Assembly: GCF_024713945.1 (NCBI RefSeq)
Contig: NC_134681.1
Span: 2,170,001-2,234,000, forward strand
Length of the DNA: 64,000 nt
Direction: 5' to 3'
From: Dermatophagoides farinae
Taxonomy: Eukaryota; Arthropoda; Arachnida; Sarcoptiformes; Pyroglyphidae
In this document: positions 158-3,100 of the stretch, in pieces
Position numbering within the stretch: the first letter of the stretch is position 1
How the letters are laid out: each line of letters opens with the position of its first letter
Translations under genes and position numbers: made by a program
The notes under the pieces: generated by a model
The model's input: the letters and a program-made list of their open reading frames with translations, nothing else
Told to the model about the DNA's origin: nothing
Databases searched by the model: none

Positions 158-3100
158 CTATACCAAATTTTGAATGAATAAATGAATGAATGAAAAAAAA
201 TTGAAAATAAAAAAAAATTCAACAAAACAAACATACCGAAAATTAGCATGACGTGAAATATTTTCACCAAATTTTACTGAACCAAATAAAATGACACCGG
301 TTAATGCATAGCAAAGGATTAATAAAAATAATCCCATTATGATGAAAAATGATTTATAAACCGAAACGGCAACTGTTAACATTAACATTTTCAATGTTGC
401 ATGTTTACCAGTGATGGTGAAAAAACGTAATATAACCACAATGAAACCGAAAGCATTGGATGCTTTATTTGAGAATGTAAAATGCAATATTAGCCACAGT
501 ACACCAAGTACGGTGACAAATAAATCATAACGATTACGGCGTGATTGCCAATAACCACGTGGTGTAAATGCGATCATTTTCATGAATACCTGAAATGAAG
601 TAGAAAGTAGAAATAATTTTCAAATGAATAAAAAAAAAACAACCAATCCACAAACCTCAAATACAAAAACACAAGTCAATGCAGCCGAAACATTGGCCAA
701 TGGTTTTGTATGTTCCATATTACTATCCCAACTAACACATAATAATGCTGAATTGATCAATACCAATATGGCAATTGTACGTTTAAATATGATATGCTGT
801 GTTATATCATAGATAATTGCACGTGCACGATGATGATCAGGACGTGGTGGTAAATGCAATGGTTGTGCAATTTTTAAACGTTTCTTCAGATCACACCAAC
901 GACGTTGATCCACCGTCAATAAGGCTGTGCCTTTATTTTCACCATAATTTGCAATGACAACGCCAACAAATAATGTAAGGCCAATCATACAGCCAAGAAA
1001 TACGAATACATGTATATAAATGGCGTGTAACTGTGGAAAAAAATCGAATCGAATCGAAAAAAAATCCAAAAATTAAAATTTCGTCAAAATTTTGCCTAAT
1101 TTTCAAACTACTTTGAAGCTATATCATATCATCATCATGCACATTTATCATCTATCTATCTATTTCTAATCTAATCTAATTTTATTTTAAAGCAACGAAT
1201 AAATTTTAAAATTAATTTTCATACTGGAGTTAACCGTGCTAAGATGACATCACGAATATCAAGCCAGCCTTTAAATGATAATACTTCAAATAGGGCCAAT
1301 ATTCCATTGCCAAGTGAATCGAAATTGAAACGACGTGGATTGGCCCTTTGTTATTTGCGTGTGTTCATGTGTGTGTGTGTGTGTGTGGGTATGCGATATT
1401 TTGCATGAATTGGCCAGTTGCAACCAAAAAAAAAAAAAATTAATCAATCAATCAATCCATTTTGAAGGCGTGAAGAAGCCGTTTATTTTCGATGTTGTTC
1501 CCATGTAACATCAAGCGACAGCAACGAAAAAAAAAGCAATAGAAAAAAAATAGAGAAAAAAAACAAACAAACAAACAATTGGTTAGAACAAGAATGAATT
1601 AATTATTTATCATTTTTTTTGATTAAATTTAAAGAATTTTCGAGAAACAGTGTGTGTATGTATGTTTGGTTCTTTCAAGCTAGAATTCATTTTTTTATAG
1701 CGAAAAATTTTAGAGCAAAATTTGAAAACAAAACCAAAAAAAAACAACTTACAATACTTGTTTGATCAATAATTATATCACGATAATCATTATAACCTTC
1801 CAATGATAACATTTCAAATAATGTTAATAATGCTTTCGAGATGGAATCGAAATTAAAATTTCTTGGATTTGACCTGAATGTGTTTTTCATGTGTTCATAT
1901 TGTGTGTGTGTGGGTATATATGATATAAGTGATGCACACACACATTAGTATAAAGTGGAAAAAAAGTAGAGAGAAAAAAAAACACAAACGAACACAAATT
2001 GGCCATTATAGATGAAAGAAAAAAAAATTTTTTTTTTTTTTGGTAGCAAACAACCACTTTTCCTCCTACTACTACTATTACTATTGCTACTGTTATTTTA
2101 TAACGATGATAATAAGATTTTCATCACTCAAATCCATTAATGTTTAGATGATGATTTGAAACTAAAATTTCTCTTTCTCGTGTTTTATTTTTTTTTTATT
2201 TTCGTCTTATTAATTGTGACAACAACAATAAAATACACACACACACACACTAATCACATTCATTTGGTCCATTATCATCAATGGAATTTAGAATTTGGTG
2301 AATTCTGAGAATTTCTATTTTTTTTTTTGGTCTGTAATTCTATCTACAATTGCTGTTTTTCTTAATTCTTGAAATTTAAAAATTAAGAAATAAAGAAAAA
2401 AAAAGAGAAAAACTTACCAAACTCTAGGCACCAGAATTGAAGGCATTTTTTCATTTTGATTAGCCAATTTCATTCTAGTCACGTGTACTTGTCGCATGAA
2501 AACACCGATACATTCTTCCTGTGTGATATATATATAAAAATATAAAAAGCAAAATTTTTTTGTTTTGTTTTGTTTTGTTTAAATAAAAATTCAATAATCA
2601 TCAATAATCAAATGATAAATGAAACTTACTCTTGTTTTAATACATGGATCATTACAACGTGCCAATAGGCCACCAAACATATGTACACCGACCGATGCAA
2701 ATACAAATAGAAGAACAATCAATAAAACGGATACCAATGCAATCTCTTTAACGCCTCTACATAATTCATATACAACTTTACGCATATGTGGTACTAATGA
2801 AAATATACGTAATGGCCGTATACAACGCATTACATATAATGTTTGTTGCCATGATTGTGGTGGTACTTTTTCTGGTAATAAACATAAAAATAGGACGGAT
2901 ATTCCGAATATAAGAAAATCCATAACACCAGCTACATTGGCTAGATAGGCATTCGGTGTAAATAACAATCCACATGCTAATGTTTTCAATAGTAATTCAA
3001 TGGCCATCGCAAATACAAATGTATATTCAGCAATAATCAATATCGATGTGTTGGTTATACGATGTTCACCGGTTTCACACATCATCGATGCACAGGATAC

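Follow-up and report, generated by a model that had tools for sequence, protein, structure and literature searches.

A probable exon 31a/31b pair for the domain III pore of NALCN in the house dust mite

The question raised by this stretch of the house dust mite genome (Dermatophagoides farinae) is whether one gene for the leak channel NALCN can be made with either of two selectivity filters and, if so, how one filter is chosen over the other. The window, which is the whole stretch of 64,000 nucleotides (nt) that we analysed, corresponds to C5:2170001-2234000, and our genome searches covered 62.4 megabases (Mb) in 22 contigs. In these contigs, a group 7 allergen gene encodes a protein that aligns to Der f 7 (3uv1) along 194 residues with two visible differences, one being the first residue; it scores 413.8 bits with Der f 7 vs 367 bits with Der p 7, which fits D. 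farinae or a very close relative, whereas a group 2 allergen gene proved only distantly related to Der f 2 and Der p 2. On the minus strand of the window lies a NALCN gene in which two exons stand in tandem at the pore loop of domain III, one with Glu at the filter position (the E exon) and the other with Lys (the K exon). We think it very probable that these two are the arthropod NALCN exon 31a/31b pair, present here in the house dust mite.

By alignment to solved NALCN, the gene is NALCN. Solved-structure searches with parts of domains I-II, III, and IV ranked five NALCN chain sequences first, and in the searches with the domain III region these five were ahead of Nav and Cav channels by more than 100 bits. 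Pore queries from domains I, II, and IV matched, under strict cut-offs, these five sequences and no others. The gene is complete: it begins with an ATG at window position 6738 and ends 2,476 bases past the left edge of the window, at -2476 (C5:2167524). The gene model was built by hand and has eleven exon positions, one of which holds the two alternative exons. The modelled protein is 2,392 codons long with either alternative, and all splice sites are GT-AG, with the 11 donors starting GTATG, GTAAG, or GTTTG and every acceptor ending in AG. The last exon (-430 to -2476) encodes a tail of several hundred residues with many Gln, Ser, and Thr runs; to our knowledge, mammalian NALCN has no comparable tail. 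The constitutive exon that follows the pair has one full match in the genome and, elsewhere, one weak match at 35% identity; NALCN is therefore likely to be a single-copy gene, and a second one was rejected. Because the UNC79 and UNC80 families are also encoded in the genome (PF14776 on C9 and PF19424 on C4, respectively), a normal channel complex is likely.

The E exon lies upstream and the K exon downstream, each with the same starting phase, an AG before it, and a GT after it (coordinates are collected in Table 1). The residue that differs between them, Glu or Lys, aligns to K1115 of mammalian NALCN. The filters of domains I, II, and IV, which read SQEGW, TQEGW, and TGEDW, align to E280, E554, and E1389 of the solved mammalian channel, so that domains I and II have Glu-Gly in the filter and domain IV has Glu-Asp. 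The filters of the two predicted forms would be labelled EEEE with the E exon and EEKE with the K exon. Because the domain IV Glu of rat NALCN sits off the constriction, unlike in Cav channels (PMC7712781), EEEE is to be taken as a sequence label and not as a proven ring.

Since 121 is not a multiple of three, exactly one of the two exons keeps the reading frame: with both exons a stop is met at codon 1316, and with neither a stop is met at codon 1271. The original prediction, made from the letters of this DNA, had named the gene and placed two 121-nt exons and their Glu and Lys codons exactly where our gene model and alignments to solved mammalian NALCN put them. It had also placed the ends of the flanking exons at 2418 and 1030, which the model reproduces, and it had stated that all remaining domains carry Glu, as the alignments bear out. 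Its proposal that the exons are mutually exclusive is allowed by the frame, which is open with only one exon at a time. It had further stated that alternative filter exons are known in NALCN of several invertebrates, and the E-then-K order does fit exon 31a/31b (PMC3557258). Its proposal that one gene could yield calcium-like and sodium-like channels is borne out in part, as far as the exons, their frame, and their order go.

By itself, an open frame would say little for such an exon, because frames of 120 nt are open in 65 of 871 overlapping cases across eight introns of the same gene; what decides is homology, phase, and splice sites. When the genome was searched with the E-exon protein up to an expectation value (E) of 10, the matches were the E exon itself and the K exon (8.3e-8) and nothing else, so no third copy of a domain III pore exon was found elsewhere in the genome at that threshold. 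A search of window positions 1-7000 likewise gave no duplicate of the pore exon of domain II (exon 15 type).

In the mechanism that we propose, each transcript would take one of the two exons, and products with both exons or with neither would be destroyed as nonsense mRNA. The K form would be the ordinary sodium leak channel (EEKE), with UNC79 and UNC80 as its partners; the E form would be an EEEE channel with an altered cation preference or calcium block. Steric blocking by a short intron was rejected as the cause of exclusion, as the intron between the two exons is 407 nt long, and minor (U12) splice sites are not supported by the donors and acceptors described above. Because a 407-nt intron is too long for steric exclusion and both exons are ordinary GT-AG exons, some regulator must choose between them. 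More speculatively, the choice could be made at two weak acceptors with a common CA-repeat element, and it could be set by a CA-binding protein or by pairing with UG repeats of the preceding intron.

A CA tract of at least 10 nt lies within 60 nt of both alternative acceptors and of 0 of the 8 others, counted over the 10 in-window acceptors (the eleventh is outside the window and was left out). On the 3′ side of each of these tracts is TGAACACA; going by its spacing from the AG, we would guess that the branch point lies within it. The combination of CA tract and TGAACACA occurs twice in 62.4 Mb, both times at this pair, the pattern having been derived from these very sites. Measured on intron bases only, the similarity of the two introns from tract to exon is matched by 0.8% of 6,006 ordered pairs made from the 78 other CA tracts of the window and by 0.6% of shuffles; the stretch preceding the CA tract is not unusually alike, with 25% of pairs reaching its similarity. 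The pyrimidine fraction at -20 to -4 is 0.41 for the E exon and 0.35 for the K exon, and it ranges from 0.29 to 0.88 at the other nine acceptors. The pyrimidine-poorest acceptor of the gene belongs to the domain II pore exon (4467-4604), which has no T at -20 to -4 (CCACACAAAAAAG) and is duplicated in other phyla (exon 15).

Several points weigh against an exon 31a/31b pair that yields two working channels. Exon use is predicted here from genomic sequence. The consequence for selectivity was not confirmed by expression in the case of snail NALCN (PMC3557258). A weak acceptor alone is no mark of alternative exons, because the acceptor of the domain II pore exon is weaker still (0.29) and yet that exon is unduplicated; CA and TG repeats are also common (59 tracts each, at least 8 nt long, on the minus strand of the window). 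The E exon is diverged, sharing 21 of 40 residues with the K1115 stretch of mammalian NALCN vs 27 of 40 for the K exon, which aligns over its whole length, and the two dust-mite exons are identical at 19 and different at 21 of their 40 residues. Finally, the Trp at the first position of the P2 helix is missing from the E exon, which has LEGY where the K exon has FKGW. This Trp is called invariant among NALCN, Cav1.1, and Nav1.4 (Xie et al. 2020, PMC7672056). As a control, we looked at ten translated stretches with other channel loci of the genome, using a pattern that permitted W, Y, F, H, or L at this position. Trp was present in 8 of the 8 pore loops recognised by eye (18 pattern lines, of which 10 were dropped as noise), where choosing by eye may have biased the result towards Trp, some loops escape the pattern, and the channel types are putative. 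Given the outcome in snail and the missing Trp beside the filter, calcium-channel behaviour of the E form is not to be assumed.

The divergence of the E exon can be read in other ways. The E form might be made but not be calcium-selective, with its Tyr causing it to conduct poorly or to act as a low-activity subunit that tunes the total leak, and we regard this as possible, if on the doubtful side. The conservation of Trp just described would fit, as would the Glu-Asp pair of domain IV, which is linked to calcium block and is kept, but Tyr may replace Trp structurally. We consider it highly improbable that the E exon is a relic, rarely or never spliced and drifting to loss as reported for Varroa. 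The EEEE exon has often been lost (PMC3557258), the P2 Trp is gone from the E exon, and where the other copy and mammalian NALCN agree there are 10 changes in the E exon vs 4 in the K exon; this difference in rate is, however, not significant (chi2 2.57, binomial p 0.18), the frame, phase, AG acceptor, and GTAAGT donor of the E exon are intact, and NPRNFNFD and LSLEG are retained. The pair could instead be a duplication within the mite lineage, in which the E exon arose anew from the K exon and is not the ancestral arthropod 31a. Without constraint, old introns should have diverged, and those before the two exons are alike up to the acceptor and carry a combined pattern that occurs only here. 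Yet the two exons have diverged at 15.3 of 26.3 synonymous sites, so the duplication is old, and the E exon sides with mammalian NALCN against the K exon at 4 sites, which would not be expected had it been copied from the K exon as it is today. Ahead of the CA tract the two introns are no more alike than usual, the order and domain fit the ancestral pair, and a new origin of the E exon seems to us quite unlikely. In an old exon 31a/31b duplication, which remains our preferred reading, the shared intron sequence suggests that it has been constrained or that the two copies have exchanged sequence.

The same flanks also allow that RNA structure sets the exon choice, with intron UG repeats pairing with the CA tracts and the pairing at the K exon looping out the E exon. 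A partition-function fold of the 1,519-nt pre-mRNA stretch predicts that the CA tract of the K exon pairs with the 16-nt distal UG tract at 2250-2235 (15.8 expected pairs), a helix that would loop out the E exon, and that the CA tract of the E exon pairs with the 10-nt proximal UG tract at 1944-1935 (9.7 expected pairs). The competing helix, in which the distal UG tract pairs with the CA tract of the E exon, has 0.0 expected pairs in the ensemble although the isolated duplex is stable at -22.8 kcal/mol (vs -30.0 kcal/mol with the CA tract of the K exon). Because of this, one state is predicted and not an equilibrium switch. Of 323,014 overlapping positions within 178,659 bases of the genome, 189 show the repeat geometry, defined as CA of at least 12 in both 60-nt flanks and TG of at least 12 in the 544-nt stretch; 48 of them are at this site and 141 in four other clusters. 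The geometry is thus uncommon, but it was noticed first and tested after, TG tracts are frequent, and the two flanks probably go back to a duplication. The E exon also lies between the arms of a 24-nt A-rich/T-rich inverted repeat (1418-1441 and 2026-2049, 96% complementary), which could loop it out as well. The fold is a single-sequence prediction; pattern scans for comparison relatives gave 4 viral-contig and 20 bacterial or archaeal-contig matches, none of them confirmed as a relative, as is to be expected of such collections. Overall, RNA structure as the basis of the choice appears unlikely to us.

If the two exons are used as we propose, a dust mite with a 62 Mb genome joins the animals with dual-pore NALCN. 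The dust mite is terrestrial, like ticks and spider mites, whereas a 2023 review links the EEEE form to mainly marine groups (PMC10120453). The diverged E exon offers a natural test of the separate roles of the P2 tryptophan and the domain III lysine in NALCN, and the paired repeats offer a simple test case for the selection of mutually exclusive pore exons. It would be a long shot that the E form, whose P2 Trp is replaced by Tyr, is functionally distinct as a pore and that the isoform is chosen by CA/UG microsatellites pairing over the E exon; if this were true, individuals or strains with repeats of different length would make the sodium-like and calcium-like leak channel in different ratios.

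Table 1. Coding exons, filter and P2 codons, and intron repeats of the dust-mite NALCN gene, in window coordinates (negative positions lie past the left edge).
Feature	Position	Strand	Basis
First coding exon in the model, with its ATG at 6738	6162..6738	-	hand model
Constitutive NALCN exon with domain I pore loop (Glu)	5178..6082	-	model and alignment
Constitutive NALCN exon	4807..5127	-	hand model
Single domain II pore-loop exon (Glu), counterpart of exon 15 in other phyla	4467..4604	-	model and alignment
Constitutive exon from S6 of domain II to S5 of domain III (segments named by inference from sequence)	2630..4354	-	
Constitutive exon preceding the pair, ends TTTG; codon TG/G (Trp) completed by either alternative	2418..2518	-	
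Distal (GT)8 tract, predicted partner, across the E exon, of the CA tract before the K exon	2235..2250	-	repeat search and fold
Proximal (TG)5 tract; local hairpin predicted with the CA tract before the E exon	1935..1944	-	repeat search and fold
(CA)6 tract before the E exon	1901..1912	-	repeat search
TGAACACA 3′ of the CA tract, E exon	1890..1897	-	pattern search
E exon (exon 31a type), domain III pore loop, 40 residues, 121 nt	1753..1873	-	model and alignment
Filter codon GAA (Glu) of the E exon, aligned to K1115 of mammalian NALCN	1798..1800	-	alignment
TAT (Tyr), first P2-helix codon of the E exon; Trp in the K exon and mammalian NALCN	1792..1794	-	
(CA)10 tract before the K exon	1368..1387	-	repeat search
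TGAACACA 3′ of the CA tract, K exon	1360..1367	-	pattern search
K exon (exon 31b type), domain III pore loop, 40 residues, 121 nt	1225..1345	-	model and alignment
AAA, filter Lys of the K exon, aligned to K1115	1270..1272	-	alignment
Constitutive exon following the pair: domain III S6 and III-IV linker	656..1030	-	model and structure-sequence search
Constitutive NALCN exon	237..589	-	hand model
Domain IV pore-loop exon (Glu), in-window part; exon extends to -358	1..157	-	model and alignment

Elsewhere in the window, the minus strand carries an intact serpin gene in a single frame at 48365-49630 (PF00079, E 5.7e-90); serpins are known mite allergens (group 27). Also on the minus strand, at 62011-63192, is a long acidic frame rich in histidine and asparagine, the end of which resembles by eye the start of a WD40 repeat, and on the plus strand two long frames of 523 and 793 residues with Asn, Thr, and Gln runs lie within 56767-60958. 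At E 0.001, no Pfam match was found for the acidic frame or for either of the other two.

The arrangement can be compared with several known systems. In centipedes, mites, and ticks, Senatore et al. 2013 (PMC3557258) describe an upstream exon 31a (E) and a downstream exon 31b (K), naming Ixodes and Tetranychus with both forms and Varroa with EEKE only, and the description is repeated in later reviews (PMC4436565, PMC6259924). The dust-mite pair is like exon 31a/31b of chelicerates and myriapods in belonging to the same gene, in being a domain III pore exon, and in its tandem E-then-K order, as well as in its equal length and phase and its one-at-a-time open frame. Unlike the near-identity outside E/K that is usual in the available text of PMC3557258, the dust-mite exons differ at about half of their residues; near-identity is a usual trait in that text and not a definition, and the divergence does not exclude membership. 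The name Dermatophagoides is absent from the available text of the same paper. Within the open-licence literature, which leaves subscription papers and database annotations outside the search, we found no paper joining NALCN and Dermatophagoides, and of the 8 open-licence papers that mention both the sodium leak channel and mites none is, by its title, about a dust mite; NALCN and exon 31a occur together in 2 papers, both of them cited here. The K exon is like mammalian NALCN (EEKE; 7cu3, 6xiw, 7cm3, 7sx3) in the whole-length alignment noted above, but unlike mammals, and vertebrates in general, which have the Lys form only (PMC3557258), the dust-mite gene also has a Glu exon. As in NALCN exon 15a/15b (EEEE/EKEE) of molluscs, annelids, flatworms, and echinoderms, the E exon is upstream of the K exon, but the dust-mite pair is in domain III and not in domain II, where the pore exon is single. 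Among four-domain pore loops, the Tyr of the E exon departs from the Trp that is called invariant at this P2 position of NALCN, Cav1.1, and Nav1.4 (PMC7672056). Mutually exclusive exons of insect Dscam1 use RNA pairing between a docking site and selectors, and in a like manner the dust-mite repeat 3′ of the constitutive exon could pair before each alternative exon; unlike in Dscam1, the elements here are simple CA/UG repeats, with pairing predicted from a single sequence. Taken together, the dust-mite pair is already known in kind from ticks, spider mites, and centipedes, and the P2 change of its E exon and the shared CA/TGAACACA flanks go beyond what the available text of those descriptions contains.
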